This document shows, piece after piece, positions 31,769 to 62,975 of a DNA stretch of 64,000 nucleotides. The notes beneath the pieces were generated by a model. The model had not been told where the DNA came from, did no database searches, and saw only the letters and a program-made list of their open reading frames with translations. The position numbers and the translations under genes are program-made. Positions within the stretch are counted from its first letter, which is position 1, and the number at the start of each line of letters is the position of its first letter. Origin of the DNA: Thuidium tamariscinum (lineage: Eukaryota; Streptophyta; Bryopsida; Hypnales; Thuidiaceae); NCBI GenBank assembly GCA_947034885.2, contig OZ019759.1:2668501-2732500 (forward strand), given 5' to 3'.

Positions 31769-31777
31769 GTCCTCACC

Positions 31778-38000: not shown

Positions 38001-38465
38001 CAAGGCTTTTGCAAGCCAAAAAAACCCATGGATTTGAACTAAAAACCTTGAACAAAAAATGATTTCAGAGATTTTTTTAAAACATACTTCTAACATGCCA
38101 AAATTGGGGGTACCACGAGATACTCTAGGAAACACCGTTGGATCTGACGGTGTTTCCTAGAGTATCTCGTGGTACCCCCAGTTTTGGCATGTTGAGAAGT
38201 ATGTTTTAAAAAAATCTCTGAAATCATTTTTTGTTCAAGGTTTTTAGTTCAAATCCCAAGGCTTTTGCAAGCCAAAAAAACTCACGGATTTGAACTAAAA
38301 ACCCCAAACTAAAAATGATTTCAGAGATTGTTTAAAACATACTTCTCAACATGCCAAAATTGGGGGTACGACGAGATACTCTAGGAAACACCATCGGATT
38401 CGACGGTGTTTCCTAGAATATCTTGTCGTACCCCCAATTTTGGCATGTTGAGTAGTTTAAACAAG
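38001..38465. repeat. Two tandem hairpins with GGATCTGACGG / GGATTCGACGG centres
   Basis: The first hairpin (38031-38255) has near-perfect arms of about 110 bp from GATTTGAACTAAAAACC to the centre at about 38143. The second (about 38330-38465) has shorter arms sharing AACATGCCAAAATTGGGGGT and GAAACACC. Both begin with the direct repeat AAGGCTTTTGCAAGCC (38003 and 38259), so the unit was duplicated in tandem. Transcripts would form long double-stranded RNA. Confidence 0.9.
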
Positions 38466-39435: not shown

Positions 39436-39439
39436 TTCA

Positions 39440-40605
39440 AAATTAAGGTTTTGGTCATAGTTTCAAATATTTTGAAAAAAATACCTTTGAAAAAGTTAGT
39501 GGTATCAAAACTAGAAGTATCTTTCAACATCCCATAAAGTTCAATTGGATTCAATAGACCTTTATGGGGTGCTTAGAAGTGCCCCTCTTTTAGGCACCCT
39601 GTTGAATTTCAAAACTATCTTTTTAGTCATGGTTTCAAAAAATTGAAAAAATACTTTTGAAAAAGTCAATGGTATAAAAACTAGAGTTAATTCTAAGAGT
39701 CCTAAAATTTTATTTGGATCCAAAAGAAATTGGAGGATGCTTGGAACTACTTCTCTTTTAGATACCTTGCTGAATTTCAAAACTATCTTTTTGGTCATGG
39801 TTTAAAAAATTTAGGAAATTTTTTTAAAAAAAATTCAAGGAGCCCAAATTAGGAGTACTATGAGGCACCTCCAAAAGGGCCGTCGGATCCGACGGACCTT
39901 TTTGGGGTGCCTCATGGTACCCCCATTTTTGGTACCTTTCTAAGTCCAAAATCAAGTTTTTGGTCATAGTTTTAAAAATTTTGAATTTTATTTATTAATT
40001 TAGTATATAATTCTCTTGATTAATTCTTAATATAGAAAAAAAATAAAAAAAATAAAAACTATGACCAAAAATTTGATTTTGGACTTAGCAAGGTACCTAA
40101 ACTGGGGGTACTATGAGGCACCTCAGAAAGGTCTATCGGATCCGACGGCCCTTTTGGAGGTGCCTCATAGTACTCCTAATTTGGGCTCCTTTAAATTTTC
40201 TTAAAATAAATTTCCTAAATTTTCTAAATCATAACCAAAAAGATAGTTTTGAAATTCAGTAGGGGATTCAAAAAGAGAGGTAGTTCCAAGCATCCCCCAA
40301 TTTCTCTTGGATCCAATTAAACTTTATAGTACTCTTAGAATTAATTCTTATTTGGATACCATTGACTTTTTCAAAAGTATTTTTTTAATTTTTTGAAACC
40401 ATGACTAAAAAGATAGCTTTGAAATTCAATAGGGTACTTAAAAGAAGGGAACCTCCAAGCACCCCCTAAAGGTCTATTGAATCTAATTGAATTTTAGAAG
40501 ATGTTGAAAGATACTTTTTTTTTTGATACCATTGATTTTTTCAAAGGTTTATTTTTCAAATTTTTTGAAACCATGACTAAAAAGATAGCTTTGAAATTGA
40601 GTAGA
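39440..40605. repeat. ~1.17-kb inverted repeat containing two inner hairpins
   Basis: Mirror symmetry around about 40015. Each arm has repeated ~180-bp sub-units starting TTTTTGGTCATGGTTT..AAAA and ending in a GGATCC-like core. The innermost sub-units are themselves hairpins: 39843-39950 (centre CCGTCGGATCCGACGG, arms AGTACTATGAGGCACCTCC) and 40085-40190 (centre ATCGGATCCGACGG). The structure is a palindrome of palindromes and replaces the region where the A transposase N-terminus should lie. Confidence 0.85.
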
Positions 40606-40607
40606 AT

Positions 40608-41075
40608 ATGACATTCACTTTGTACCAAGTGCAAAAGTATAGACTTTTTCTAGTGAATGATTCAAAAATCTACTTACCTAGGCTCACAAAGAAGAAAAGG
40701 TGTTTTGAAAACATGGTTTTCAAGAAATGGTACATCGTACTTATGGAGGTTTTTACATCATTCATTTACAGAAAAATACGTTGTTCTTCAAGAAATTCAA
40801 ATCCTTTTGCTTAGCATGCTTTTAAAACTTTTTTGATAACTAAGTGAAAAAATGGGATAATCGTGCACCAAGATATTTTTCAAGTAGCACATGTTGCAAT
40901 GAAAAAGTATATTAATGCCACACCAAAAAGCAACAAAAGGCTAAAAGAGGTCATTCATACTATAAGGGCTAGAGTGAAAGAGAGAACTAATACTTTGATG
41001 GTAAAAATGGACAAACTACTATTAATAGTGGCTCATCCCTCTAATAGGCTTGGCTTCCTAAAAGAGGTGAGTTAA
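40608..41075 (+). pseudogene. Extra ParB-methyltransferase fragment in the opposite orientation
   Basis: Plus-strand frames read LYQVQKYRLFLVNDSKIYLP...MEVFTSFIYR and MHQDIFQVAHVAMKKYINAT...NTLMVKMDKLLLIVAHPSNR LGFLKEVS. They match two consecutive exons of the B gene (minus strand, about 49110-48960 and 48850-48650), including a donor-like GTGAGT after KEV. Element A already has its own copy of these exons at 35.0-35.5 kb on the minus strand, so this is a third copy. It probably derives from an internal inversion-duplication or from another family member. Confidence 0.7.
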
Positions 41076-41280
41076 ATTTCAAGATATTGCATGACTTTGC
41101 TTTTGCTTATTTTTCATTTTAAGTTTGACAAAAAAAAATGGATGTATTGCTAGTGTAGATGGAAAGGCATTAGAGCATGAACAAGATTCTTGAAATGATA
41201 TTGGAGAAGGCTCTTGAATTGATTCCTGAAATGACACCTGTGATACTAAGATTTACTATTGTTTTAGTGACAACCTTAAT

Positions 41281-44200
41281 TTGAGTAGGGTTGTAATTCT
41301 TATAGGAAATTATAGTCACTCAATAGAAAAAAGCATGTATATAGACTCTACAAAAGAAATCACTATATTCATTGTAGATGAAGTTGCCAAAACCTCTACA
41401 ACCACAGATTTTGCCATTGCCTTGTCTGCTAGTATAGATTTCACAAACCATTCATTTCACCACAAAAAGGGAGTGAAGTAGATCTTGAAAAGAGAAGAAA
41501 TAGAAAGGGTTATAGATTACTTCAAGTTTCTAAATAGTAGTATATGGAATATCATCTCCTCTTTATGTTCAAACAACCAAAAAGGGTTCATTGACATCAT
41601 TATGACTATGAAGAGGGAATCCAAGTTTGAATTCATACACTATAATATCTTCCCAAGCCATAGCAAAGAAAAGGTTTACATCTTCAAAATGCTCATTGAA
41701 GGACCTAGAAGTAGAGTCGACTTGATGAAGCACATGCAACTTGGAGGTGATCTACAGAATGTGTAGATAATGTTTGACCATGCAAAGCACATGAACAATT
41801 GACCACCATGGCTTGCCACGTGTACAACTTTCATTACAAGAAAGAAATGACTATTGCAATTTGTAGCATGCAATCAAAAGATACGAAGATCCAAGTGTAG
41901 TTTTGAAGGTCGTTGAACGCTAAAGTAGAGAAAAACGGAGTGCGTATGCCATATTTTAAGGATTTCATGGTAGATAGTGCTATGGTCAATTGGAATGTAG
42001 TTTGCATTGTTTATGGTAGTGGTTGTGCAAATGAGGTCTTAAAAAATCATGAGAGGGCTTATTTACTACATAGGAATAATTCACTTACAAACTTATATAG
42101 AAGCACATCAAGTAAACATTCCAACAATAGTATATTACATTATGTAAACAATACAAAGAATCAAAGACTTTGAATGAAGCAAAGACATGCTCTCTTGTAG
42201 TTAGGTCATGGTGATTCTCATGTAGAATTGTAAGTGAAGATTCACTTCATCACTTGGATCACTGGCTTGCATTTTGGCATATTCAGTATTTACAATGGAG
42301 AGGCTTCATGACAATGATAATTGAATCTTCTTTTGGTATTGAAAATATTTTTTTATTCTATTAGAAATTGAGGACTAGAGATTTGAATTTGATTGTGGAA
42401 GAATTTTTTTCATAATTAGATCTAATTAGTGAAATATTTTAGTACAAGTGCTTGAAAATTTATGGTAATAAGAATTTGAAAGGTTCCAAAATGGAACTAG
42501 TATGGGCCATCACTTTGACATCCGTCGGATCTGACAGCTCTAAGTGTACCTTCATTTTCAACTCCCACTTCGGATAGCTTCTAGTACTGACCATTTTGAA
42601 TCATGTTCTAGTTGAAGATATAATCCTTCACTATTTTTATTCTTATATAAAAAAAATTGTATTTTGAATCCATTGGATTTGATGGTTCTAAATATCTCTA
42701 ATCATTGCATTCTATAAGTGGTACCTTGGAGTTTAGAGCAACTTTGACAACCTACTTCAAGGTACAATCTTATTAGATTTTTAATCTCATATACAAAATT
42801 AGGATACTACAAATTTCTTGAATTCTATTTATTTATCCTTTTCAATTATACTCTTTTAGACCTAAAACCTTATACTAAAATGCTTGCAACTATGCAAAGT
42901 AATTTGAAATATAATTGGCATGACAATAGTGTTTCCATTTTGTACTCATTTCTTGCTATAATTGGATTTGTAGGGTCTCACTTTAGAAAAAATGATGTAT
43001 ATGCTTTTCTATAATTTGTTTAAAATGGTATATAACAAGTGGCTATAGATGTTAGGAAGAAGAAAAAACAATTTGTTCGATGCATCTTGTTTTGACAATA
43101 TTTGTACCTTGGATGCAAATGACAAACTACCAAATATACCTAAGCAGATATGCATTAGGGTCAAGATCATCAAAGGGAGGAATTGAAGTTGAGAGCTGCA
43201 AGATGCAACGGATGCCTCAAAAAAATTGGAAAAGTATTGAATACATTGCCAAAAGCACATGGCGTGGGAACTTGAGTACCACATTTGGAAGGAGAAGAAT
43301 TTTTGGAAGCACAAAGAAGACACTTGATGTACCTATTGGTGATGTAAGAGATTAATATAGACCAAACAAAGTCAATTTTTTGTAGCCCTACATTCAAATA
43401 TGGTCTAAAATGGTTATAAAAGATAAAATAAAAGGTACTCAAAATCGCAATGTCAATCTTCTCTACTATGTGACGTCTAGTAGTATGCAAATGCGATTGT
43501 AACACATTGAAATGGCATATTGCAAGGATCAAATACAAATTGAATGCAAGATGCTTTGCTCAACAATAGACATCAAAAATCAAGTGTACTTCAAGGATTG
43601 CAAAGGATAGAAAGGAAACCCAAGCTCCAATATATCATGGTAGAAAATAAGAGTTTTGAACTAAGCAAGAGGTGGTGGATTTCTGGTTTTGTTAGAATGA
43701 CATTGAATGATGTATAGAAGGCACAAAGAAGAAGTGAGTCATTGATTAGCGAGAGCTACTTGAAATTTAGCCTATACAAATACGGACCAACCTCAATTGA
43801 GAGAAAACTTTACTCTTATAGAATGTAAGTTTTTGCCCCCACGACTAGCCCACATTATTACCAACTAAATTCTTTACAGTGGCTAAAATTTTTGAGCTTG
43901 TCTTTTTCAACCAATCATGTCTCCCAAATCTAAATGCACATCCAATAGTGAAGAACAACCAAACAATTAAAAGACTTGCAAATGATTCAACTAAAGAACA
44001 ATAAAACAAATGGAAAAGTGTTGGAAATATTAGAGGACAAATTCTAGAAGTAATCTTTATCCCTCTTCTAGGACTTGGTGCAATAGTGGTGTTGGAGACT
44101 AGGGTGGAGTCAAATTAAAATGTATATCAAGTGACAATTGGTATATTTCCTATATGTATAAGCTCTAATTTTATCAGTATAGTGATGTCCATTGTCAAAA

Positions 44201-44355
44201 GAAAAGTGCAATGTGTAAATTGTAAGCATTTATACTATTCTTATAGGTACTCTATGGATATTCATGATGACAAATTCATTTATGCACTTAGATATAGCTT
44301 CAATGACTTGAAGCTATTTCTACTTCAAGCAAAGATCATCATTGTTTCCAAGTAG
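41281..44355 (+). pseudogene. Element A MULE-like transposase remnant
   Basis: It aligns with the B transposase from about residue 390 on: MYIDSTKEITIFIVDEVAKT, IIMTMKRESKFEFIHYNIFP then KEKVYIFKMLIEGPRSRVD, then YFKDFMVDSAMVNWNVV (second catalytic Asp region), QMTNYQIYLSRYALGSRSS, GQILEVIFIPLLGLGAIVV, and the SWIM region VNCKHLYYSYRYSMDIHDDK. The first two SWIM cysteines are lost (TCTCPDF became ICISSNF). The N-terminal zinc cluster is missing, its place taken by the inverted repeat at 39.4-40.6 kb. There are dozens of stops and frame changes. Differences from B are largely C-to-T and G-to-A. Confidence 0.8.
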
Positions 44356-44716
44356 GTATGGTTAGTTTTTGGTGTGTATTACATTCATATTGTATTTCTT
44401 TACATATAGTGCAATTGAAATGATATATTCTAATTTTGAAGGCATCTTTTTTGGCATGTGTTTCTATTTTTTGACCTTTTTTTAATTTGCTCACTTTTGG
44501 AATTGTCCATATACATTCCGGGTAGTCAAAAAAATACAATTTACTATTGGAATGTAATACAAGTCTTTGTATTTAAAGTGGTTGGCATATTCATTGCTAT
44601 GGTTCAGAAACAAATTTCTTAAACTCTAAATACATAGGACTAATTGACTAAACAATAATTGCTCCAAAGTAGAGGATTCTATAACAATCCACGGTTATAG
44701 CAGGCATAGTCATAAG

Positions 44717-44835
44717 CAGGGTTGCTAGCGTGTGAGCTTGGGAGCGTGAGCCTGGGAGCCTGGGAGCGGGAACTTTTTTTTTCCAAAAAAGTGGATGAGG
44801 ATCTGTAACCGTGGATTTACCTATGACCGTGGTTT
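44717..44835 (+). repeat. Element B left terminal and subterminal repeats
   Basis: The terminal part consists of four or five GAGC-spaced ~8-10 bp units (GTGAGCTTGG, GAGCGTGAGCCTGG, GAGCCTGG, GAGCGGGAAC). It is followed by TGTAACCGTGG and CCTATGACCGTGG at about 44801-44832. Confidence 0.88.
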
Positions 44836-45084
44836 TGAATAGTGTATACTGCTTTTGGAGGGTTATTTGGAATTTTCGATATTTCCTCCCACAGAAACCT
44901 TAAGTCTGTCAAAAGAGCTTGTAATAATGAATTTGTGTTGGATTTTAAGTTCTTTGTTCAACACCAAATTTATTATGTCTTTGGTTCGAGTTGGTTTAGG
45001 GTTCTTCAATTTATATTTAGTGAAAATATATTGTATTTCAAGGAAGATAAAGTGTATATTTTACTTGCCATTTTTATTCATACA

Positions 45085-45360
45085 TAACCATTTGGAAGGG
45101 ACTATATGTTCAGCTTCCCATTTTTTTCATTGAGATCCATTTGGAGGGGAGTATATGTTAACTTCCCATTTTTTTCATTGAGACCCATTTGTAGGTGACG
45201 ATCTATTTCCTTGATATTCAATTGAATAGAAAATTCCAAATAACAAGATTCAAGAGAAAAATAAAAAATAATTTATAGCCATAAAAAAACCTGTATATAG
45301 CAATAGAAGCAAACACTATATAGCCATGAGAGCAAACAATATATAGCCATAAAGCACACA
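45085..45360 (+). repeat. Short tandem repeats inside the left end of B
   Basis: A ~56-bp unit (CCATTTGGAGGGGAGTATAT, then TTCCCATTTTTTTCATTGAG) occurs about twice at 45089-45197. A ~25-bp unit around TATATAGCCATA occurs about four times at 45276-45355. They are non-coding and 3' of the ParB-methyltransferase stop. Confidence 0.75.
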
Positions 45361-45425
45361 AATCCAATCATAATAAAAATCAAAACATACTGGTTTGACT
45401 CATGAAATATGTCAATTCCATGAGT

Positions 45426-48400
45426 CTAATTTGCAGTAGACTCTGTCGCAGAATCCATGTCATTAGAAGACTCTGAAGTCTCTCTACCCTCAGACGCTGA
45501 TCCATCTATGAATTGTAAGACATTTAGAGCGTAAGAAGGTTTGCGTTTTTTGGATTTAGAAGTACCAAACTCAGCAAACGCTGATGCTAATTGCTCTGCA
45601 TAGATTGGAAGATCGAACGGCTTCTCCGGGCTTGAGATGAGTCTTTGTCTCTTCTTCACTTCGTCCTCCATGATTACTCCGTCGTTGCTACATATGCACC
45701 AAATGCATTGTTAGATAAATGAAACATTCCAACTACAATGAAAATAGAAAATGGATATATAAAAAAACTTACTTACAAGGTTTAGGGCGCCGAACGAACT
45801 TCCGAGGCACAATCACAACAGCATCTTGATCTTGTGATAAAACCACAAGTGCTGCCTCTGAACTTGAAGCCACGATCACTGGAGCATCTACCTTCTTCAT
45901 TGGCAAGAGGATGTGCTGAAAAATCCTCTTGTCTTCTTCCAACGCAACAATATGACGCCCCGTTGCACGGCATGCAGTAATAGATGCACCTGCCACAAAC
46001 CAGAAGGTGAATCATTTTGTAATCATTGACTACATAAAGTAGAGATGGTTTCAAGACATTCAAGAAATCAAAACTCACTTGTAGATGCAGTACAATCAAG
46101 TATTATGTCTCCTTCATCAGTGGTGCCTTCGATGATGAACTGAATGAAGCGGGCGTCCTTCTCTCGAGCTCCGCGCCAAGCCATTCGATCCATGTCATTC
46201 ATCAACATGGTGTCCTCCGTTGTGTAATTCATGAGCAGGTCATCGCGACGGAGGTCTACCTTGGCTTTCAGCATGGTTTGAGAACGCCTAAACTGGAAAT
46301 TTGATTTCCCTCAATCTCCTAGATGCTTGACAAACAGTGTAATACCAAACTTCAAAGTCTGCAAGCACAAGCAATATTGACATGAGAATAAGTAACAAAA
46401 AAAGTAACTAATTCATCTTCTAATGAATATTTTCAAACATTAAGAAAGTAATACCGTTTGATCTGGTTGAACTGCTGATGTAAGGTGCATGCGATTCATG
46501 CCCATCCACTCTTTCATCTTCCTAATGTTTGGGTACTCTTGAAGAAGTCCTGCAATGGTTTCCAAGGAGTCTTGGCCCCAAGAATGGAACACAACAATGC
46601 AGCCGTCGTCCTGCAAATGCTTGCCTGCAAATGCAAAAGCTTGAAAGATGGTAAAATACTCCTTATCTGCGTTCCAATAAGGAATGTGCTTGGAGCCCCC
46701 AATGTTTGGTACAGGCAAGTTCTCCTGGTAGTCAAATATCATAAGATCAACTCCTGGATGCCGATTGACAACCCCACCATAAACTCTTGCTTTTCCTACC
46801 ACCATCTGCAAGTACATTTCTTCAATATATGAGAATTTGATGAATAGAAGTACAAAATAATACTCTTTTAGTGATCCAATTGAACTGCACAATATAGTGA
46901 CAATGACAAAGATTACCTTCCGTAGAAACTCCATGACCTCGGTGTAACAATTTGATCCCTGTACACCTTCATTGTCTACCACTTCTCCAATGGAGACACC
47001 CAATAGTAACTCCTCGGAGGTGACATCATCATCATCACCAAGGGCAATGACTTGGGTCCCTTGAGTGATGACTTCTTCCGTGAAGTCAAGAAGTACCGCC
47101 TTCCTCTTCAATCCTCCCTGAGATGCACCTTGCATCTGAGAACCTTCATCCAATGTTGATGAGGCTGGAGCGCCACTGCCATCTACTACTTTCTTCCCTT
47201 TTGCCCGTTCCTTCTCCTCGTCCTTCTTCTCCCTCTTCTTCTCCTTCTCTTCTAACTTTGCAAGACGCTCGACTTCTTTCTTCTCCTTGCTCTCCAGAGC
47301 CAATTGAATGCGAGCAGCTTTTCTTCTGTCATTAGTCTCCCTCCTTGCAATGGCCTTTTGCCTCTGCTTCTCAGTGAGGCCAACAAACTCATCAACCTCC
47401 ATGGTCACGGTGCCTATTCCCTCCAAAGAATTCCGCAGCTCTACCTCAGAAGGATGTGTATAAGAAATAGGGCAATCAAGGTACCACCCCCCACCACTTA
47501 GATGAGCCGTGGTGAATGTGCGAATTTGATTCGCCGTGAACATGCAATCCGATGAGTTGCGGTCAAGAAATCCAGATAGAAATGGAGGAAGGTCTGCTTT
47601 CTCAATGGCACCTTTTGCTTCTAGCTCATACTTGAAGTACCTGCCATGAGCAATAATGTGGTAAGTAATAGAAGCTTGGAAGACAAACAATAATATAGAT
47701 ACAATCCACAAGCAAAACAAAAAGAAACCACATTTGAACCCAAAAAAAAATCTCATTTAAAAAGTCATTATTTCAATTCCAGTGATGGAAATTGGGGGGT
47801 CCCAGAGGTACCTCTTGGACATCCGGCGGATCCGACGGATGTCCAAGAGGTACCTCTAGGACCCCCAAAATATTGAACATCACGGAAAAAAACAACTAAG
47901 TAGCACAAAAAAGTTGAAATTCAGTGAGTTGTGCAATAAATAGGAATGTAGACAGTTAATTATAAGGAAGAACTCACCGAAAGAGAACCCTACGCACAAC
48001 ATGATTGGCCCCCTCAAAAGTGTGGAAGTTGTCACTTTTCTTGAAGTAGTTAGCTCCTCTCAACTGTGCCAAGAAACCTTGATCCCAAATCTTCCTCCTC
48101 CATCCTTCCAAATAGTCCACTAACGTCTCGGGCTTTGAGGGAAGCTTCATGTTGATAGGAATGTTGTCTTGGCTTACGACCGCCTCAAAGTATTCGAGTG
48201 CAGCATCCTCAATCTGTTGTAATTGATAAACAAATTATAAACCATTCTAAGCAAACAATACTGGTTCAATTTCAATACTCAAACATTTATAAGAATGCCT
48301 TTCTCAAATAGAATTTCAAGAATGCACCATGTGATGATAAGAAGTGCTTACCCCAACATACCAGACACATCGGTTTAGAAATGGACCAAGTAGTAATTCA

Positions 48401-49949
48401 GATACTGGTTTGGGTGGGAAACGCCTTGACTCCCGTGAAAGGATGGAAGAATTCCACCACTTCAAGAACTTGATTTTATGAGCCGGAGTCGTATTGCATG
48501 TTGCAACCATCTGCAACTTCTCCAAGGTCATCTCAGGAATCTCATTTGAGATCCAATGCTTCTCCACCTACACCAGAGAAAAAAAAATTAGATTTGTATG
48601 GGATTTTGAAGTGACATTTCTCATTTTATTATGAAATGGAGAAATTACTTACTTCTTCCAAAAATCCAAGCGTATTAGCTGGATTTGCCACCGCTAACAA
48701 TTTGGACATCTTCGAGTTCAACTTTCCAGTCTTCTCTTTTGCCCCATCTCTCATTGCTTGTGCAAGACCTTCTGCAATGCTCTTGCCCTCTGGAGTGACC
48801 TCATTGTATTTGCGAGCAACTGCGTCAGCGGCTTGAGATATTTCTTGCTGAGAAATCCAAGTTCCCAAATGACTTGAAATCAGTATACAAAAAATAATAG
48901 AAAACATTAGTCAAATGAAAATTAAGAAACATAGGAAAGGAATATCTCACCCGGAAAATAAAGGAAGTGAAGACCTCTTGTGGCATAGAATACCACGTCT
49001 TCTTGGTTTTTGGTAGTCCACACCGCTTCAACTCTGACGGCTTCAACATCTCATTGAACCGTTCAATAGGTAACAACCCATACTTCTGAACCTGATATAT
49101 GTTGTGAATCATATTCGTCTTCACATGAGAGCCTTCCATTGATCTGTCATACAAAACAAGTTTCTCAATGTCGTGTTCATCATGAATCCATATTTTGAGA
49201 TTTCTACTAAATTATGAATTCAAAGCATAGAAATTGAGGGTTTAGGATATTCCATACTTGTTAATGTCATGCATGGCATGCATGGCAAGCTCGATTCTGC
49301 CCTTTGTCTCGAAGACAATTGAATCCACACAATAATGCCATTTCCTGTCATTGGAGTGCCTCCTGGAAATGTAGTTCATCCATGAGATGAGACGGTGGTT
49401 ACCGTCACAAACATAGAACTTCAGGTTCCTTAAGAACCTCAACTCCGGCTTCGACTCCAAATGGGCAATGAATGTACTGTTTTTTTCTTTCCAAAAAGGA
49501 TCCCACTTGTCCATCTCTTCTTCTGTGAACTCAGAGCTCTCCCCAGCTTCGTTTGTTGTAGTCACATAAAAAACTGCTGCACCCTCATGGTAACCAACTA
49601 CAAACTCGTGCTCGAGCAATTCCAAATCAGAAAAAAGGGTAGGTCTCACCATCGGCATAGACACCATTCGACACAAAGGTATTTGAAGCCGGAATAAGTG
49701 ATCCGGCTTCATTCTTAGGCTTGCTATTGTGTTCACTGAATCCCCTTTTTGGAATTGTCGCAAATCATCCTCCAACAAGTCCTTGTCCTCTTCTGCTATG
49801 AAGTCATACAACACATCTTGCTCCAACACATCTTGTCCCTCCTTAGAATCCTTGGGTACACTTGAAATCTCTTGTTGAATTGTCTCTTCCGTGTTTGGAG
49901 TCTCAAAAATAGTGTCTTCTTGAGAAAGGTTGACTGGTGACACATCCAT
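45426..49949 (-). CDS. ParB-like domain / DNA methyltransferase-like fusion gene of element B (about 11 exons)
   Basis: The start ATG 49949 directly follows a TTTTGCAG acceptor. Exons by homology with A and by GT-AG limits are about 49949-49255, 49143-48950, 48850-48650, 48567-48350, 48213-47975, 47643-46918, 46806-46455, 46358-46080, 45990-45777 and 45688-45426, roughly 1,050 residues. Seen: an acidic N-terminus, a ParB-like motif FYVCDGNHRLISWMNYI near residue 180, long helical blocks, a Lys/Glu coiled coil (about 47170-47380), then a methyltransferase-like end with DLMIFDYQENLPVPN and DDGCIVVFHSWG, then MAWRGAREKDARFIQFIIEG and GDIILDCTAST / GASITACRATGRHIVALEED. That order (a DPPY-like position before the glycine loop) is the beta-class arrangement of N6-adenine and N4-cytosine methylases. 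The catalytic DPPY/SPPY tetrapeptide is not conserved. One in-frame stop lies in the exon at 46358-46080; otherwise the frame is open, so it was lost recently or is read differently. Nuclear DNA binding is inferred. Confidence 0.72.
47781..47883. repeat. Intronic hairpin centred on CCGGCGGATCCGACGG
   Basis: Arms of about 48 bp (GGGGGGTCCCAGAGGTACCT then CTTGGACATCCG, and inverted) lie in the intron between the exons at 48213-47975 and 47643-46918. The centre is at 47830/47831. It is absent from the matching A intron, so it is a mobile or variable insertion. Confidence 0.88.
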
Positions 49950-50136
49950 CTGCAAAATCAAAAAAGAAATCAATGTCTACAAATCTAAATATGAGGAGTC
50001 AAAATCTAAGTCAATTCAAGATCCAATGGAAACCTATATTCTTTGAAAGTACACATAAAGAAAAATTTAGTAATTTATAAAATTTCAATAGGGTTGTATA
50101 CAAAATATGTATGGTTTAAAATAAAGCTAAATCCAC

Positions 50137-50560
50137 TTAGTCTATCTCTATATCCCCTTCTGAGTCTGAGCTCAAGTGAATGAACACTGGCTCTTGTGGA
50201 CCTATAGGACCACTACAAGCACACATACAAAACTCTTGTAGTGGTGGACCATCTACTGTGATAGAGGTTCGTGACTCTGAGCTATACTCAGTGTCAGAGC
50301 TCTCTAGAGACGTGAATCTTCCTCTCTTATACAGAATCTCTAATTGCCTTACAAAATGTCTTTTACTGCGAGCCCTGATGTCACTCACTCGACTCGTCAC
50401 TGAACTCTCAAAGGCATCTGCTGCTTGCGATGCTGCATCCATGATGTCATCAAAACTTACCAAGTCTTCACGTGGAGCTTATGTGTCCTCTTCGGAGTCA
50501 CTTGAAACATCAACATTTCGATTCACTCGTGCAGGGAACTGGGATGGACCCGCTCCATGA
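50137..50560 (-). CDS. Small ORF with SUMO-interacting-like motifs, 5' of the ParB-methyltransferase
   Basis: The frame 50463-50137 starts with ATG (MVSFDDIMDAASQAADAFES), continues with SVTSRVSDIRARSKRHFVRQ and ESSDTEYSSESRTSI, and ends EPVFIHLSSDSEGDIEID-stop. Upstream in the same frame, NVDVSSDSEED precedes a stop. A related ORF sits at the same place in A. It may be a short independent protein or a 5' exon joined to the large gene by splicing. The acidic, Ser/Asp-flanked hydrophobic cores resemble SUMO-interacting motifs. I do not recognise a domain otherwise. Confidence 0.5.
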
Positions 50561-50599
50561 GTCACCAAGGCACTGTCAACTAGTGCTAAAGGTGAAGAG

Positions 50600-51090
50600 G
50601 CCCCTTCTTCACATCCTTGTTTTCAAAATCACAGTCCCAAAAAAATTAATTTACTTAGAAAATACATAAAGATAGAGCAAATTGGAAGTCATTCATGGAC
50701 ACACTAGAAAGTATAGAAGCCCATTACTAAGAGATAGATGATCTCAGGGTTTTATAGCACTAAAGACAAGACTCCCATCATTCCAAAGACAAGACTCCCA
50801 TCATCTTGGACTTTGATTCATTCTACATTCTTTATGTGCACCATGAAATTTAGTCTAGTTAGCCATATACTTTGGAACAATAACAATAAAAATAAATGAA
50901 AGATTTCAAGCGAAGGCATTTCTAATCAATAACATTCAAAATTCATTAACATACTACAATTCCGAAATCTATAAAATCGAAAATTTTTAGTAAATGAAGA
51001 ATCTTTGAATTCCGCTGATTCGTTGAAATCTTTGTAAAATTAACCAAAATTTCATTTCTTCAAAAAAAAAAAATTTTTTATTAAATTTTG
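50600..51090. other. Non-coding spacer of B
   Basis: Contains a direct repeat of AAGACAAGACTCCCATCAT at about 50765 and 50790. No gene is seen. It may hold the promoter region of the minus-strand gene. Confidence 0.4.
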
Positions 51091-51091
51091 G

Positions 51092-51191
51092 AATCTGGTA
51101 CTTGAGACCGTGAGGTCCCCAATATCGGGGCCCGGTGACCGTCGGATACTAGGCCACGATCTTGGGGACCTCACGGTCTCCAGTATCAGAC
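51092..51191. repeat. Hairpin with degenerate GTCGGATAC centre
   Basis: Arms GAGACCGTGAGGTCCCCAA and, inverted, GAGACCGTGAGGTCCCCAAG around GGTGACCGTCGGATACTAGG. The symmetric centre has been altered by mutation. Confidence 0.85.
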
Positions 51192-51410
51192 GCTTGTAAA
51201 GGCTTAACTAAATAAAAAAAATTATTTTCATTTTTTTTTTCTTAAAAAATATCTAAAAAATACAGCATATATATATATATATTTCAAAATATTAATTTCG
51301 ATTTAAAATTAATGAAAAATAAATAAAAGTATTTGAGTTATCCATTTAAATCATCGTAAAATGAAGAAAAAAAAAATTAAAAAAATTTTAAAAAATTAAA
51401 AAAAAAATTA

Positions 51411-51528
51411 TAGCCGTCAGATGATGGAGATCCTAGGGTCCCCATGATCGTGGCCTGGTGACCGGCGGATCCAACGGTCACCAGGCCACGATCATGGGGA
51501 CCCCAGGATCACCATCATCTGACGGCTA
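51411..51528. repeat. 118-bp hairpin, centre GGCGGATCCAAC
   Basis: Arms of about 53 bp from TAGCCGTCAGATGATGG to GGTGACC with only two or three mismatches. It lies in the spacer between the two divergent genes of B. Confidence 0.93.
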
Positions 51529-51816
51529 GAGATCCTTCTTCCGCATGCAATACATGAAAACCAGAGTTCAATACTCTGAACGTATCTGGATTTTCAGATC
51601 TATAGATCATAACCGAACTTCCAAAATCCCAATTTCAAACTTACAAATGATCGTGATAAAAAGCTCTGCAACTCGCATTTCACGTCCAAAACTTTTGTAA
51701 ATATGAGCTAGTTATCAAAATGAGATTGTGCATCGACAAAACTCCTGCCTGCCTGAGATCATCATCGAAATCCTAGCATGACCTGGTTTCATGAATTAAA
51801 TTTTGAAAAAAGAAAC

Positions 51817-51944
51817 AAAAAATCCCCGCAGGGTTGCATTCTTCGGGGGTCCAGACTTTGGCAGTCCGAGGTAGCTCGGATCCGAGCTACCTTGGACTGC
51901 CAAAGTCTGGACCCCCGAAGAATGCAACCCTGCGGGGATTTTTT
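51817..51944. repeat. Almost perfect 128-bp palindrome, centre CTCGGATCCGAG
   Basis: Arms of 64 bp from AAAAAATCCCCGCAGGG to the centre at 51880/51881 with about one mismatch and no loop. This is the best-preserved hairpin of the family, so it is probably the youngest or is kept by conversion between arms. Confidence 0.95.
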
Positions 51945-54520
51945 TTAAATTCTTGATGACAAAACAACGACAACAATCCCTGAACCTGGTTCGGAGTGAT
52001 CCTGTATACATCAACGCAACTACTGGATTCTCTAGTCCAACCTGTTGAGGAAGTCTGGGACTTTGCAACCAAAAACTGAAGAACTCCAAACAGAAAACTA
52101 AAGACGCCGACCTTGTATCCTATCGTAGGAAGACCAGGAAATCAGAGGATTCCTTCGGCATGACCGCGCACTTGCGCAGGTGAGAAACAAAATGAGTTGA
52201 GTTTAACCTTGGAGCTCTTCCGCAGTTTCCTTCTTGCAGCTGGAGCTGGTGGCGTCGATGAGCCCTCCCACACCCGGCTTCGAGTAGTTCGCGTCATCCT
52301 TGTGTCCTGAGCAGAAGCAGAAGAATCTCAAACATGCGCAAGGAAGTGAAAATGAGAGCACAGGTCCTCCGACGCTCAGAATCCAGCATCGAAGTGGATC
52401 AGTTGCTCGAGGTTAGGAGCCTTGTAAGCGAAAGCCTTGCATGCCAAGCAGGCACCAGAATGGCAACATTCCCTGTCAGGATAAGAAATCCGAAACATTC
52501 TCTCCGAATGCAAGGTGGATACGCGCCGCGGGTGATCCACAAAGGCGAGGATCCCATGTCGATCTGTATTCTCTGCTCCTGGTCTCTCCGCGCGCCGCAA
52601 GCCTCCCGAGATTTTAGTTTTCTAAATCTGCAGATTCTCAACGTACCTCCCGAGGCACTTTTTGACAGACTGAAGCAACCGCATGATAATGTGATATTAC
52701 GAGGTGATAATACGGAGGTGCCGTGACGTGGCCTGTCACTGCTGACGTGGCACGCAGTAACAGGGCAGGACCCATATGAGTCCAGTTTTCGTCCTCCTTA
52801 TGCCATGTCAGAACGGACGCGTGGCAGTTTCTTATTCGTCATGAGGTAATCCAGTTTTCAAATTAAATTTTTTTATGGCATTGTCAATGCAGATGATGGA
52901 ATATCAAAATCAACTTTTAAGTAGAATTTAATTAATGCATAATCATTCTTCATTTTTTGGTCAAGAAAAGTTTTCCTATTGATGTTAATGATTTTTTTTG
53001 TGCCTCTAACAGCTATATATTTAGTGGTGAATGATTAAATTTTGGTTATTCTTTAATCTAGTTGTTCCATTGTCGGTTGTTTATCCTCTTTGTCTTGGAT
53101 TAAGGTTTGGTATAGGTTTGGATACTTTTGAATACGTCAATACTATAGCCAAGCTCAAAATGAAAAGAAAATCGTATATGGTAGTCTATTAAGAGCATCT
53201 TGAAATATTGAATCTTACAGATCCTCAACGAAAAGGCTAAGCTTTGTACACTAAATTCTTAGCTCTTGACATAAGATATCTCTCTCATAAGTAGTGAAAG
53301 TGTATACATTACACCCTTCAAATTCCTATTCCGCCTTCAATAATCTAATTGAGATGCGTACATCAAAATTCTGGAAGATATAAAATACCGTGACACTCTC
53401 CCAGAAGTTGCGGAGATAACAAAATTGAAGAGGCAACACTAAAGCAAAGAAATTTTCTAGCGGATCTTACAGTTCTGTAACTCTGTGCTGTTCCACCTGC
53501 CTCAATATTGGTATTGGCTTCGTACGTCTCCTGGACTGCTTCACCATCGTGGATCTGGTCCTCCTCCTCCCCACCAATGCTCTCTCCTTCGAAGCGAAGG
53601 GATCTCCGAAGATCTTCTGCTGCGTGTGCTAACTTAGATGGCCCTCTTCTCCCTCTTGTCATTCTAGATCGTCTTAAAGCCCGAGAGGATGAGAAATAGA
53701 ATGCAGTTCGCTTCCTCTTTCTTCTTCTATGATTCGAACTACCCAAGAAATCTCTACTATTCTCTACAAGCATGAAGTCAGAAGCTAGAACATCACAACT
53801 CCCGCACTCTCCCGCACTTCCACAAGCAATTGATAAGAATGTGTTTGGAGCCAAGGTTCCTCCTTCTTATGGTGTAAGTAGAAGGTTAGGGTTAGCCGCT
53901 TTTTCCTCATCTGGAGTAATGACGCGCGTGGGAGTACAGTGTTACATGGGTTGAATGATGTACTATGAGCGGCGCCGGCAAAAACTTATTGGAGGATCTG
54001 GACTTGACAGTTTTGTCATTGTCAGTTTCTTCACCTTGAAGCCTTAATTTCTGCAATTCAAAAAAGTGAGTTTGCCGTCTACTGAAATGACCGCTAACAT
54101 GTCAGATTCTACAGTAATAATGGGCTATGACAGCCGCCTCCACACAGAGAATTAAATTTCAATAGAGAAGGACTTGTAGTCCTTACATTGGTGGCTCTGT
54201 TTTAATTTCTTAAGATTATACAATATTGAAGGATTCTGTGGAATAGAGGTGTTTGCTTTTTCAAACTTATATGTCAGAAGTACTTTTAAATTAATTATAT
54301 TACAGAAGTAATTATTTCAATGTTCTAGGCCTTATAAGAAGGTTGCTAATAAATGAAGAATGTAAAGCACAGTGGCGGCTAAAATTGGATAAAATAGAAA
54401 TAGATAAGATTTTATATCTCTAGACATGACAAAGTTCAAATGTAGTCATGCTTGTGTTCATTTCAACCTCATGTGGTAAAAAGGATTCATAGTCTCCTCT
54501 TTCTCACAACCCTCTTTTGG
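51945..54520. other. Intergenic region of B with GC-richer gene-like pieces
   Basis: Two stretches differ in composition from their surroundings. Near 52140-52740 the minus strand holds a frame with ECCHSGACLACKAFAYKAPN then LEQLIHFDAG and a Ser/Arg-rich stretch. Near 53363-53870 the minus strand holds a 160-codon frame (with RRRKRKRTAFYFSSSRALRR and a donor-like GTAAGATCC at about 53470). Neither has a family I can name. They may be captured host exon fragments (as Pack-MULEs do), or the promoter and leader exons of the divergent genes. 52870-53340 and 53960-54500 are AT-rich with nothing recognised. Confidence 0.35.
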
Positions 54521-54528
54521 ATTTCAGG

Positions 54529-57500
54529 ATGGCTTACATTAGAGTAGATGGCCGTGAAGTTCCTTTGGTTTTTCCAGTAGTAGATGGTAAACCCGCTAGA
54601 GTGGCCTCCCACCTTCTCCATATTCAATTCAAATTTATAGAGACCTCCATATATGTTGAAGAGGAAAAAATGCTAGATTCAGGTGAAGTCCAGGAGTCCA
54701 TCCCTGTTGTTGTGTCCGTAGAGGACGGAATACGTTGTTGGTACCTCGGTCCAGAAAACTATAGAGCGTATGGGCTTCCACTGTCTATGTTCAGTGCGTC
54801 CTTGGAAATCCTTAGTCGTCAGTCAGATAATTCTACAGTGAATATGCCATGTACCAAATCGGGCATTGCACTTAGTCCACCTCCGGAAGCTTCCCCAATT
54901 CTTGAGAAGCATAAAGCACTTCGTGCGGTGAAAGTAGAGAGATTAGATCCAATCATTGAGTTGTCTTCAGATTCTGATGGGGAAACTCCTCATTCTGGTT
55001 TTGAGAATCCTGCTAGTTCTGTTCTGCTTGCACCATGCAAGATGGAAACAATTGAGTCACTATCCGCAATCCCTTCAAGTAGTCCTTCAAAATCGGCATT
55101 GACAGTCCCCCATTTCAATCCACATGTAGCGAGCATAGAGAGCATAGTGGATTGTTTGAAGAGACTAGGTACCATGCGCCGCTCTCGGAATGAGTTGTCA
55201 ACAATGGATCTGGGCAGTTTCAAGCACATGCAAGTTCCATTTCTTCCCACCGTCTTTGATGGAGATGTCATCTTCGAATTGCCACCATGCCGCTCATCTT
55301 CTTCTTCATCAGGGGCCCGCAATTTGGAGGGGATGGATAAGCGATACGACGGACATCCGTGGTGTAAAGTGATGACTACAAACATTCACAACTCCGACAA
55401 CCTGAAATTCCATAAGTCATTCTGTGCTGGACATCTTTCTTGTGAGAATGCAAATTGTGATTATCTGAAGAGAACTTCAAAGAAAAATGAGACAGAGTGG
55501 ACTGGATATACTATATTCCCTTTTACTCCGGGAGAGTGTACACCTGTAGACTCAACTCTAGTATGCAAGGTTTGCAAAACTTCACCTATGTGTCTTAGCG
55601 CATGCCTAGCTAGGATATATTACGTATGCAGTAATAAGCCAGAAGTGAATAGAGCAGCAATTCACTTTGGAGAGCATAGGCACCCTGTTGCTAAGGGCAT
55701 GTACAGAGATTCTACTGAAAAGATTTGCGGACTTATAGCGGAGCAAGTGGCAAAGACACCCTTGGCTACAAACTCTGCTACTGCTCTTTCAGCTAGTAAA
55801 GACTTCTTAACAAACTACTTGTTTCACAATGGAGAGGGCAAGAAGGAGATGTTGAAGGAGGAGGAAATGGAAGAGGTTATGGATCGCTTCCAGTACCTGA
55901 GTAGTCCAAGTATCCGCAACGTTATCTCTTCTTTCCGTTCAAACAATCGTGGAGGACTAATTGACAACATTATGACCATGAAGAAAGAGTCGAAGTTTGA
56001 ATTCATACACGACAGCGTCTTTCCAGGACAAGGTAAAGAAAAGGTCTACATTTTTAAAATGCTTACAGAGGGGCCTGGGAGTGGAGTAGACCTTGTGAAG
56101 CGCATGCAAGGAGGAAGTGATTTGTAGAATGCTTGGTTGATGTTTGACCACGTGAAGCGCGTGAAGGAGTGGACCACAATGGCTTGCCACGTGTATGATA
56201 CGGAGTACAAGAAGGTGATGACTGTAGCTATTTGTGATATGCAATCTGAAGACACCGAGGTTTAAGTACAATTTGGCGAAGTTTAAACGCAGTAATGCTT
56301 CAACATGGGGTGCCTAATCCGAATTTCAAGGGATTTATGGCAGATAGTGCCATGGCCAATTGGAATGCAGTTCGCATTGTGTATGGTAGTGGTTTTGCCA
56401 ATGTTGCAATGGAGAATCGTGAAAGAACATGTTTGCTGCATTGGAGTACCTTTCTCCATAGACATACACAGAAGTACATCAAAGAGGCATTCCAACAACA
56501 ACATATTTCGTTATGCAAGCAATACAAAGATTCGAAGAATATGGACCAAGCAGAGACACGTTACTTGGCAATACGTTCATGGTGGCTATCATCGGGAGCT
56601 GCAACTGAAGATGCACTTCGTGACTTAGATCATTGGCTGGCTTTTTGGCATTTTCGATATTGACAGTGGGGAGGCTTTATGGACATGGTGCGTTGAATTT
56701 TTGATGTCAAGTTATGTAATTCTTATAGATGAAATGAAAAATTCTCTAATAGAAAGTTCAGTTTAATGTATGATAAGAATGAAGTGGTAGTGAATACATC
56801 CAATTTTTTTTTGGTTTTTTTCTGATTTTTTCAATTTTTCCTTCCCATGTCTGAAAACGAGGGGGTCCAAGTAATATAGTAATTACATCACTCGGATCCG
56901 ACGGACATATTAATGGTTTTAGGTGGACCCCCCAAATTTGAGATTTACATTAAGAATTTGTGGATGAAATGAAAAAATTGAAAGGCATTTAATCTCTTGG
57001 ACTAACAATTTGGATTAATGATATATTCTTCATTATGTAGTTTTCCATATATTAACCCTATTGATGAAGTCATTGCTAGTCGTATACAATGTTAGAATGT
57101 ATATTGAATACGTACAAGTAGATACATGCAAAGAAGCTTGATTTATTTGAAGTATACAAGACTAATTTCTTTTGAGTTCTTTGGCTTTCCTAGAAATTGA
57201 GTTTGGAGGAGATGCTGGACTTACCATCATGTAACCTATCTGAAATGGTACATAACAAGTGGCTGCAAATGTTGGGAAATCGAGGGAACAACTTATTTGA
57301 TGCAACATGTGATGACAGTATCCATGCTTGGATGCAAATGACAAATTACAGAGCATACTTGAAAGGCCATGCATCGGGCTCAGGTCCCTCAAAAGGAGAG
57401 TTGAAGCTCAGAGCTGCTAGGAGGAGTGGAGATCCCCAAAAAATTGCAGATGCATTGAATGCTTTGCCGGGATTAGAAGGTGTGGGAACAAGAATACCGC

Positions 57501-58582
57501 ACTTAGAAGGAGAAGAAATATTTGGGAGCATGAAGAGGAAGTTAGATGTCCCCATTGGTGATGCAAGTGATTCACATAGACCGGACAAAATGAATTTCTC
57601 TCAACCTCGTGTTAGAACAAGGTCTACGACAACTTCTTCACCTTCTTTGCAGGACAAGACTAAAGAATCTGAGGTGAATACTTCAACATATGTTCCAATT
57701 GCATTTGAGAGTGATTGCGATACATCCAAATGGCATATTGCAAGAATCAGCCACAAATCAAATGCAAGATGTCAAGCTCAACAGAAGACCTCAAACATCA
57801 AGTGCACAGCTAAAATTTCAAGGGGAAAGAAGGGAACTCCAGCGCCAACCTACCGCGGAAGAAAAGAAGAATATGGTAGTAAACGAGAAGTGGTAGTTGA
57901 CTTTTGGTTTTGTTGGGATGACATTGAACGTTGTGTGAAGGGTTCTAAACGGAAGTGGGTTATTGATTGGCCCGAGATACCAGAGGTTTGGCCTATTCTC
58001 ACTGGAACAAACCTCAATCGTGAAGAGACATTGTTGTTGCAGCATGCTGGATTTCACCTACAAGCACGGCCAGTATTGTCACCACGTCAATTGTTCACCA
58101 TGTCAAAGATTTTCACCACTGCTTTGTATGACCACCCTTCACCGAAGAACCCTGACGCATATCCAACAGTGAGGAATAACCGTACCATTCGAAGGGTTGC
58201 AAATGCACCAACCACCGAACAACGGAATAAGTGGGAAAGTGCGGGCAATGTCAGAGGCCAAATTCTAGAGGTGACTTTGCTCCCTTTTCCAGGACTTGGT
58301 GCAATTGTAGTACTCGAGACAGGGTCAGATTCTAACAGGAATGCATATCGAGTTACAATAGGAATGTTTCCAACGTGTACATGTCCAGACTTTGTGAATA
58401 TGGCTGTTTCAGCTATTGGTGGTCGACAACAGTACGTGAACTGCAAGCACTTGTACTATTTGTACACGTACTTTTGCAAGATGGATGTCCACGAAGACAA
58501 ATTCATTCATGCACCAAGTTGTAGCTTCAATGAATTGAAGGTACTTCTAGTTCGAGCAGGAATTATTGCAATTCCAGAATAG
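54529..58582 (+). pseudogene. Element B MULE-like transposase with SWIM finger
   Basis: The start is ATG 54529, three bases after a TTTCAG acceptor-like site. Part 1 (54529-56127) shows a SIM-like PIIELSSDSDGE at residues 142-153 and a WRKY/GCM-type zinc cluster (FHKSFCAGHLSCENANCDYL, CKVCKTSPMCLSAC, AAIHFGEHRHPV; residues about 295-388). It continues as a transposase core with VMTVAICDMQ (first Asp region), FKGFMADSAMANWNAV (second Asp region) and RTCLLHW (C..H). Part 2 (about 57190-58582) is a conserved tail with NKWLQMLGNRGNNLFD and ends in a SWIM finger CTCPDF...VNCKHLYYLYTYF (58376-58470). At least three in-frame stops and one frame change fall between 56125 and 56665, while part 2 is fully open for 460 codons. 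SWIM fingers plus 9-11 bp target duplications are typical of Mutator-like transposases. An intron probably lies at about 56690-57190. Confidence 0.78.
56850..56950. repeat. Imperfect hairpin centred on ACTCGGATCCGACGG
   Basis: Outer arms GAGGGGGTCCAAGTAATAT and, inverted, GGGGGGTCCACCTAAAACC. It lies in the putative transposase intron of B. Confidence 0.65.
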
Positions 58583-59227
58583 GTATGGCTAGATATGTTT
58601 ATGTTTTTCAATTTCATTTATAAATATATATTATAATTGCTATTTGAAGTTCATTTCCTCATATTACAAAAGTATTAGAAAGTGTTGATGCAACTATGCT
58701 TGTATGTGAGCGAAGAGTATTCATGAACCCTGAAAATGAGGAAGAGTGACAAGACTCAAATTCCAAGGTTCATATTCATATGTCCCATAACAATTGCCAT
58801 TCTACAACGCGCTACTATAAGAGTTGTCTTCTTCGATGGTCATATATGGCAAAGGACTGTGTGGGGGAATAGCCTTTCTCCGTCATCATGTGGAGAATTA
58901 TATTCCCCTCGGTTCTTTGACATTTTGTTGAAAATACCAACTGAAGCATGTGTAGATAAAGCACGTATACAATAGTACAGGTATGGTATTTAAATTTGAA
59001 AAATGATGACGTAGGGGCAATCATGAGACTAAGAAGGACACAAAATTAGCTTTATATTTTAGCATAAAGTATCACTAGGATATAGCTTCAATATAAGTGT
59101 TTGACAATTTTTAGAGTGTCGAGAAACTAAATCCTAAAATACGTATGATAAACTTTGAAGGCCTCTGTCTTCATCAAATTAAACTTTAAACAAAAAAAAT
59201 AAAATTTCACAGAAATGATTGTCATAG
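58583..59227. other. 3' region of B downstream of the transposase
   Basis: A 79-codon frame at 58736-58975 has no counterpart in A and no recognised family. No other feature is seen. Confidence 0.4.
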
Positions 59228-59458
59228 GTGACACGGTCATAGGTCACGGTCATTGGTGACGCGGTAATAGGTCACATGGTCATAGGTCTTAAATTGAAGA
59301 ACAAATGAAAAAAAAATTAGAATTTTGAAAAAAAAAATGAAAAAAAGTAATTTTACCCAAAAAATTTGAAAATATCTGGTTTGGAGGCTTCCCGCTCACA
59401 AGCTCCACGCTCACGGCTCACAGGCTCGCCGCTCCACGCTCGCACACTAGCGTCGTTG
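59228..59458 (-). repeat. Element B right subterminal and terminal repeats
   Basis: Five degenerate (CACGGTCATAGGT)-type units lie at about 59228-59290, followed by about 90 bp of AT-rich sequence and the terminal repeat 59384-59458 built of GCTCACA/GCTCCAC units and ending CACTAGCGTCGTTG. Confidence 0.88.
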
Positions 59459-59468
59459 TAGTCATAAG

Positions 59469-59642
59469 TACCAAAATTTACTATAAATAGTAAAAATTTT
59501 GTTCTAATTTTTGAAAAAGTCAACCAAAAACAAAATTCAACTAAAATTTCTCCAAAAAAAGGTACTTCAGGCTTACCGCTCACAACCTTCACGCTCGCAG
59601 CTCACAAGCTTACCGCTCCACATTCGAGCGCTAGCGTCGTTG
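59469..59642 (-). repeat. Element A right terminal region, displaced by B
   Basis: The terminal repeat 59568-59642 closely matches the right end of B (CCGCTCACAACCTTCACGCT... GCGCTAGCGTCGTTG). The subterminal repeats of A lie on the other side of B (CCACGGTTATAGC at about 44689), which shows that B landed inside A's subterminal region. Confidence 0.88.
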
Positions 59643-59651
59643 GTCCTCACC

Positions 59652-62163: not shown

Positions 62164-62166
62164 TCA

Positions 62167-62388
62167 CACTAGAAGAAAAGCTTGAAATTTTGCGTTTGTT
62201 TCAACACAACGCGTCAAGTGAATTGTGTTGAAACAAACGCAAAAAACAGTGAAAAACTGCGAAAACGCAGAAAAATGCATTTTTCTGCATTTTCGCAGTT
62301 TTTCATTGTTTTTTGCATTTGTTTCAACACAATTCACTTGACGCGTTGTGTTGAAACAAACGCAAAATTTCAGGCTTTTCTTCTAGTG
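62167..62388. mobile_element. 222-bp palindromic CACTA-type MITE
   Basis: It begins CACTAGAAGAAAAGC and ends with its inverse (...TCTTCTAGTG), with an exact 3-bp duplication TCA on both sides (62164-62166 and 62389-62391). The whole element is a nearly perfect palindrome. Each arm contains a smaller palindrome built of GCGTTTGTTTCAACACAA. CACTA start and 3-bp duplication are diagnostic of the CACTA/CMC superfamily. It is non-coding and a strong candidate source of hairpin small RNA. Confidence 0.9.
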
Positions 62389-62975
62389 TCATGATAGTAG
62401 CATTACATAGAAGTAGACATTGTGCATCTTTTCTATACCCAAAAATGCATTTTACATTAGAGGAATTTAGTCATATTTTGTGAATCAAAACATACAATCT
62501 ATATTAATTATTAAATGGAGGTGACATCTTGATAGAAATTTGCTTTCAACAAGAAGCTCCATTAGCACAAGCAATGCACACAATGCAAAGTAGAAGAAAA
62601 AACTCAGAGTCTATAGAATTCATTAGCCCCTTCCAAAATTTTGTAGGCAATCAAGTATTTTTCCATTTGAACTAGGTACACCCAAAAGCGCCCTATTCCT
62701 ACAAGCACCCTCTATAATGCACATACATTTCTAAAATCAATCATATTCACAAACTATAGATGGTGCTTTCAAAAACAGACTTTGAATGTTAATAACTTTT
62801 GCATAGGGTATCCAAATCCTGCATTCTTTGATGTGTTGGAACATGCTTTCACTTGCCAACAACATTGCATAGACATTTGAACTAGAAAATAACAAAAACT
62901 AGGCACAATATGAAGACGTGGCGCTTTTGGGTGTAGCAACCTGAATGCATATAGCTTCCTAGAGTCCTCAGAAAT

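Follow-up and report, generated by a model that had tools for sequence, protein, structure and literature searches.

Two nested elements and their genes

We describe a stretch of 64,000 nucleotides from the moss Thuidium tamariscinum (contig OZ019759.1, positions 2,668,501 to 2,732,500), referred to as the window, in which two related DNA transposons are found one inside the other. Both elements, B and A, into which it was inserted, carry a transposase gene and a second gene, here called the cargo gene, whose product ends in a region related to DNA methyltransferases. The main features are:

44717-59458: element B, end to end, 14,742 bp, with left end CAGGGTTGCTAGC and right end CTAGCGTCGTTG
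44707-44716 (+) and 59459-59468 (+): left and right copies of the target-site duplication of B, TAGTCATAAG, a perfect 10 bp
45426-49949 (-): cargo gene of B with 1121 codons in 10 exons; its one in-frame stop is a TGA at codon 885
54529-58582 (+): transposase gene of B, broken by stops and a shift of frame; its C-terminal SWIM match is marginal
31778-59642: element A, split by the nested B, its own DNA being 31778-44716 and 59469-59642, 13,113 bp
31769-31777 (+) and 59643-59651 (+): left and right copies of the target-site duplication of A, GTCCTCACC, a perfect 9 bp
32039-36676 (-): cargo gene of A, broken; exon 1 holds a 298-nt insertion, and the codons aligned to B include 15 in-frame stops
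41236-44352 (+): transposase remnant of A, with 23 internal stops in aligned codons

The 10-bp sequence TAGTCATAAG is present just twice in the window, on the two flanks of B, and the point at which B was inserted lies 174 bp from the right end of A. The terminal sequences of A are the same as those of B, with 72% identity over 103 columns at the left ends and 75% over 108 columns at the right ends. The terminal inverted repeats of B align at 80% over 54 columns (score 28, against a maximum of 19.5 in 200 shuffles), while those of A are marginal, with 65% over 75 columns, about 22 nt out of register, and a score of 21.5 against 17. This is the anatomy of two related DNA transposons resembling Mutator-like elements (MULEs), one nested in the other. 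An earlier note, made from the letters of this DNA, had described B with two divergently transcribed genes. Both were found where it had put them, the cargo gene on the minus strand (49949 to 45426) and the transposase on the plus (54529 to 58582); the element itself exceeds the interval of 45426-58582 that was given for it. The note had also stated that A repeats the layout of B, which is borne out, since both genes have homologues in A that are arranged alike. In both elements the two genes stand head to head and are transcribed away from each other, and with both genes present in two of the two elements this two-gene layout is standard as far as the window shows.

Both elements are dead copies, since their cargo and transposase frames are broken. 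The transposase frame of B is cut by stops at 56125 and 56263, after which the coding sequence goes on in a different frame, and the homology of the A transposase to B begins only at about residue 358 of B's pieces. The description of B as a Mutator-like transposon with a SWIM-bearing transposase stands in part: terminal inverted repeats and duplications of 9 to 10 bp were found, the SWIM match is marginal, and the Pfam MULE domain went undetected. The Pfam SWIM profile matched the transposase with E values of 0.0066-0.014 and 15.4-16.4 bits, under the cut-off of 19.6. No match to the Pfam MULE DDE domain was obtained up to E 10, either with the transposase pieces or with the read-through, in a search whose HMMER filters drop most weak matches; NCBIfam gave no match of note for the transposase, and its last 462 residues had no match in PDB. 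In the available text of a survey of MULEs (PMC6446971) target-site duplications of 8-11 bp and SWIM fingers are described for this superfamily, and the duplications of B (10 bp) and A (9 bp) fall within that range. Because the DDE domain was undetected we use the wording "MULE-like", a label which derives from duplication length, inverted repeats and the sub-threshold SWIM match and leaves the superfamily unproven.

Conservation of the cargo gene

The splice sites of the B cargo gene were picked from sequence alone, and the following model is a prediction made without a transcript (all exons on the minus strand):

49949-49258: exon 1
49143-48951: exon 2
48847-48653: exon 3
48567-48352: exon 4
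48213-47978: exon 5
47640-46917: exon 6
46805-46455: exon 7
46358-46079: exon 8
45989-45773: exon 9
45687-45426: exon 10

All nine introns are GT-AG and together they restore one frame of 1121 codons with one internal stop. This, and the concentration of differences between A and B at third codon positions (first 342, second 264 and third 591, each of 1064), places the gene far from chance, and the divergently transcribed multi-exon gene that the earlier note had seen beside the transposase is supported by the ten-exon model and its homologue in A. Comparison of B with the left part of A (31778-44716) by blastn gave 12 blocks, one of them the left terminus, one the fragment of a third cargo copy described below, and ten lying on exons of both genes with short overhangs. 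DNA identity of the cargo exons is 54-69%. The ratio of nonsynonymous to synonymous differences per site (pN/pS) is 0.384 for the cargo (bootstrap 0.349-0.425; 1047 codons) and 0.340 for the transposase (0.300-0.387; 755 codons). Within the cargo it is 0.37 in the N-terminal region (225 codons), 0.38 in the middle (533), 0.40 in the methyltransferase-like region (186) and 0.41 in the tail (103). These low ratios argue that both genes were retained through most of the divergence of A and B, and by its substitution pattern the cargo is under purifying selection, a maintained gene and not a chance capture.

MULEs can capture coding sequence, as set out in the available text of PMC13317346, and the cargo could in principle be such a captured fragment of a host or bacterial gene, functionless in the manner of a Pack-MULE. 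That two highly diverged elements share one multi-exon gene at a corresponding position, under purifying selection, makes this hardly credible, and simple capture was rejected on the selection seen in the cargo.

Other traces of the cargo gene and of its surroundings are present in the window:

40572-41069 (+): fragment of a third cargo copy, corresponding to B residues 227-361 (tblastn E 5e-16, 33% identity)
50137-50478 (-): short open reading frame (ORF) upstream of the B cargo, with a counterpart in A at 36881-37237

The remnant of the third copy sits just upstream of A's truncated transposase. Differences between A and B in the short ORF show a weak bias by codon position (43, 40 and 59 of 102), and it is either an upstream exon of the cargo or a separate small gene. 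The 298-nt insertion in exon 1 of the A cargo lies at 35907-36204, and an inverted copy, 96% alike, is found at 30660-30957.

The two ends of the cargo protein

Two regions of the predicted protein were examined most closely:

45773-46805 (-): methyltransferase-like domain, exons 7-9, with the motif IV position DYQENLP at residue 777 and the motif I position DCTASTSAS at residue 957
49258-49949 (-): exon 1 with a DGNHRL loop (residues 181-190, CDGNHRLISW), possibly and weakly like ParB or DUF1015

The C-terminus, for which a segment of 282 residues (753 to 1034) was used as query except in Pfam, where the whole protein was run, matched DNA methyltransferases in four of the four profile libraries tried. 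Pfam N6_N4_Mtase was found with E 0.013, under the family cut-off, NCBIfam CcrM with E 7.6e-4, five methyltransferase families of PHROGs with E 1.3e-5 to 0.0038, and PADLOC MTase_II with E 2.9e-7 over 178 residues (60-237 of the segment). In PDB, DpnA was matched with E 0.036 in two stretches in order. In profile-profile comparison (hhalign) with an alignment of phage ParB-methyltransferases, motif I aligned with P 1.6e-5 (probability 79%) and motif IV gave a weak second match with P 0.03 (probability 1.7%), the motif order being correct: the similarity runs from motif IV to X and I, as in beta-class N6/N4 DNA methyltransferases. The methyltransferase score of B was above 500 of 500 shuffles and that of A above 499 of 500. 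A tblastn search of phages with this part gave 175 records, the best with E 6e-6 and none covering 80% of the query, and plasmids gave no match at E 0.01. The beta-class-like methyltransferase end proposed for the gene is thus well supported by the agreement of profile libraries, hhalign order and shuffle tests, and on sequence similarity the cargo C-terminus is related to, and descended from, a beta-class-type N6/N4 DNA methyltransferase.

At the catalytic position B has DYQE and A has DCLE, where 13 of 13 non-redundant phage proteins have DPPY, and the pattern [DNS]PP[YFW] was absent throughout the A and B cargo proteins. The glycine loop of motif I is likewise replaced, by DCTASTSAS (STS) in B and DCIASTWAC (STW) in A, at a site where 11 of the 13 phage proteins have the glycine pattern. 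An LPPF is conserved away from the catalytic position (PPF at 529 in both A and B). Since neither copy keeps DPPY or the glycine loop, catalysis is doubtful and was probably lost; the suggestion that the protein could modify DNA is likewise doubtful, as both the catalytic and the S-adenosylmethionine loop motifs are affected. Filing the cargo under active methyltransferases was rejected on the same replacements.

It may still be asked whether the protein is, or was in intact copies, an N6-adenine or N4-cytosine methyltransferase that works with unusual motifs and marks the DNA of its own element, as proposed for the protein of a Sola transposon of Ectocarpus in the available text of PMC12477816. 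Its clear kinship to bacterial and phage enzymes and that published reading are in accordance with such an activity, and both copies in the window are decayed and may misreport their family. Neither copy, nevertheless, keeps the catalytic tetrapeptide or the glycine loop, even though the constraint on the domain is much like that on the remainder of the protein, and wholesale decay fails to explain the loss of motifs in a B cargo with a single internal stop. We therefore regard an active enzyme as rather doubtful.

For the other end of the protein the evidence is of a different order. The profile search that the earlier note had proposed returned methyltransferase families and no ParB family, the Pfam ParB families having no match in the cargo protein. 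Over the GNHRL loop of B, Pfam gave DUF1015 (a family with ADGHHRY) with E 0.021, far below the cut-off in strength. A DUF1015 profile was built from 40 proteins of bacterial and archaeal contigs with the pattern IADGHHRYETA, one of them confirmed as DUF1015 (E 1.4e-89). This profile aligns its DGHHR to the DGNHR of B, with 3 of 500 shuffles as good and with P 0.0038 (probability 8.8%) in hhalign. DUF1015 is a putative relative of ParB, a kinship for which a literature search turned up no support. Close relatives of the N-terminal exon were not confirmed in viral contigs or prokaryote genomes, none were found in phages, and PDB gave no useful match; for a further DUF1015/ParB search over one phage record and 14 control genomes no sequences were obtained. 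The GNHRL motif alone proves little, since GNHRL-like letters recur inside the methyltransferase part of several phage proteins, and as evidence for ParB on its own it was rejected. A weakly ParB-like N-terminus is thus a lead with modest support from the profile comparisons.

Candidate sites in the non-coding DNA

Possible cis sites of two kinds were found:

59221-59287 (+): subterminal tandem array of GTCATAGGTGACACG, 4.6 copies, at the right end of B
37785, 38135, 38391, 39373, 39880, 40133, 42522, 47823, 51462 and 56889: sites of the 16-bp palindrome CCGTCGGATCCGACGG
47794-47866 (-): palindrome centred on GGATCC, in intron 5 of the cargo
51411-51528: palindrome centred on GGATCC, lying between the two genes of B
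51817-51944: palindrome with 64-bp arms and GGATCC centre between the two genes of B

By raw count the window holds five copies of the motif ACGGTCATAGGT with at most one mismatch, all of them inward from an element end by 76 to 226 bp: once at the left end of A (31854), once at the left end of B (44819), three times at the right end of B, partly in the tandem array, and not at the right end of A. The ten sites of CCGTCGGATCCGACGG, with at most three mismatches, lie seven in A and three in B, all in non-coding DNA, with none in the other 36 kb; at four mismatches one more appears in B and one outside the elements at 19635. Markov controls gave a mean of 0.08 and a maximum of 1 in 60 runs, a test partly circular, as the consensus was drawn from those same copies, except for the confinement to A and B. 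Five of the ten sites are centres of scored long palindromes and a sixth (40133) is the centre of another palindrome. Nine long palindromes were scored; A and B hold seven of them, and the two outside have different centres. The centre of the palindrome at 51817-51944 is not within four mismatches of the 16-bp core; on both of its arms stands CAGGGTTGC, the first nine bases of the element left terminus.

The arms of the palindromes differ among many, and some are related (38135 with 38391, 39880 with 40133). Those of 51 bp at 38142, inside the decayed A, have about three mismatches, and since they are so little decayed in a decayed element the palindromes may be younger insertions. Even with the controls in view, they may be a separate family of small palindromic insertions. 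Another palindrome, with 112-bp arms 96% complementary and a TGCA centre, lies outside the elements at 62166-62389.

Elsewhere in the window a multi-exon gene (2155-5641, +) has by eye a DGQHR-like loop (FYIINGQHSVEA) in an ORF at 2971-3348, which matched no Pfam family and had no tblastn similarity to the cargo protein. An ORF for a phosphatase of the NIF/FCP1 type is present at 18850-19380 (-) (Pfam NIF, E 5e-8), and a second such candidate, seen by eye only, stands beside the DGQHR-like gene at 7003-7700 (+), its part 7003-7305 having no Pfam match. A search against Rfam gave no match.

Possible role of the cargo and comparison with known systems

The reading to which we tentatively lean is that of two nested MULE-like transposons whose standard second gene would encode an accessory protein of about 1,120 residues that binds DNA without catalysis and is perhaps anti-silencing in function. 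Its N-terminal region would fold like the "DGxHR" domains of the ParB/Srx type, and its methyltransferase fold would be retained for binding of DNA rather than catalysis, as both copies lack DPPY and the glycine loop. The protein would act on the element's own non-coding DNA, in anti-silencing or as an accessory of transposition, in a role modelled on that of VANC in VANDAL elements and alike in role, not in descent. VANC binds short motifs, often tandem repeats, in the non-coding DNA of its elements, as given in the available text of PMC5735166, and in keeping with a role of this kind are here the motif array at the right end of B, the single copies near two left ends and the recurrent non-coding palindromes.

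Several results weigh against this reading. For the N-terminus, the loop noted earlier as a "ParB-like GNHRL domain" is present and its assignment to ParB is weak: the phage ParB-domain profile was negative, equal scores being reached by 147 of 500 shuffles for B and by 62 of 500 for A, and the DUF1015 signal of B was not reproduced in A, where 54 of 500 shuffles were as good. The two pieces of the A cargo had no Pfam match. AlphaFold2, run on exon 1 with an alignment of 3 rows, gave a model with a mean predicted local distance difference test score of 34.7, which is unusable, so that a ParB-like fold is not established. For the C-terminus, Pfam gave no family for exon 7 when it was taken by itself in its ORF, and it is possible that the catalytic motif is displaced, the placement of motif IV coming from a weak match. 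The Ectocarpus relative is predicted to make N4-methylcytosine or N6-methyladenine (PMC12477816, in its available text). As to selection, synonymous sites are saturated (dS, the synonymous divergence, is 2.7), and no weight should be put on the ratio of corrected rates, 0.13.

The cargo could also be a cofactor of transposition, which binds termini or palindromes and aids pairing, target choice or the segregation of copies. The head-to-head position of cargo and transposase in two of two elements, the motif copies near the ends and the palindromes in both elements are in accordance with it; no such protein is known to be needed for the movement of well-known MULEs, and we consider a cofactor of this kind unlikely. 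A more elaborate proposal, in which a ParB-like protein with a catalytically dead methyltransferase fold recognizes parS-like palindromic sites sharing the CCGTCGGATCCGACGG core, seems to us quite improbable. If true, it would be a self-recognition system which marks copies of the element as self and shields them from silencing or helps their pairing or mobilisation.

The elements and their cargo can be compared with several known systems. Phage ParB-methyltransferases, such as the WO phage protein P0001, have a ParB-like part followed by a beta-class methyltransferase, the order proposed for the cargo as well, with methyltransferase similarity to the cargo at profile level. These proteins are of about 400-480 amino acids, encoded in an intronless single frame and with DPPY intact (13 of 13), whereas the window protein has about 580 residues between the two regions. 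Epigenetic enzymes are known as cargo of DNA transposons, TET/JBP in fungal transposons and SET domains in oomycete MuDR and HarbingerS according to the available text of PMC12730594; they share with A and B a cargo related to DNA- or chromatin-modifying enzymes, and the enzyme classes there are others. In the main text of the MULE survey PMC6446971 the word methyltransferase is absent; for cargo of this type, SET domains are named in the available part of its Table 1.

VANDAL elements with VANC resemble A and B in joining an extra gene to a MULE-type element, the recognition of motifs in its own elements being a feature of VANC (PMC5735166). In the available part of that paper no relationship of VANC to ParB or to methyltransferases is mentioned, and we claim no homology. 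If pseudo-enzymes of the kind proposed here act in self-recognition or anti-silencing, they would be an independent counterpart of VANC.

The earlier note knew of no ParB-methyltransferase fusion as standard cargo of a eukaryotic MULE, and none was found for a MULE among the literature matches listed, most subscription papers and preprints being outside their coverage. For eukaryotic transposons in general such cargo is already published. In the available text of PMC12477816, Sola1-1_Ec32 of Ectocarpus has a protein of 1104 amino acids, with ParB and an N4/N6 methyltransferase, opposite its transposase, and green and red algal transposon proteins are cited there as of the same accessory kind (Iyer, Abhiman and Aravind 2011; Petroll et al. 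2025). Sola1-1_Ec32 is, like A and B, a large DNA transposon with a gene on the opposite strand for a protein of similar length. It differs in belonging to the Sola superfamily, in its size of 21.5 kb and in a methyltransferase predicted to make modified bases; in comparison by description only, A and B have duplications of 9-10 bp, a marginal SWIM match, replaced catalytic motifs and a weakly supported ParB part. The elements of the window would thus extend ParB- and methyltransferase-like cargo from Sola and other algal transposons to MULE-like elements in an intron-containing eukaryote. Their substitution pattern shows that this cargo was selected and not accidentally captured, and the new point they suggest is that a methyltransferase fold can persist after its catalytic motifs are gone.

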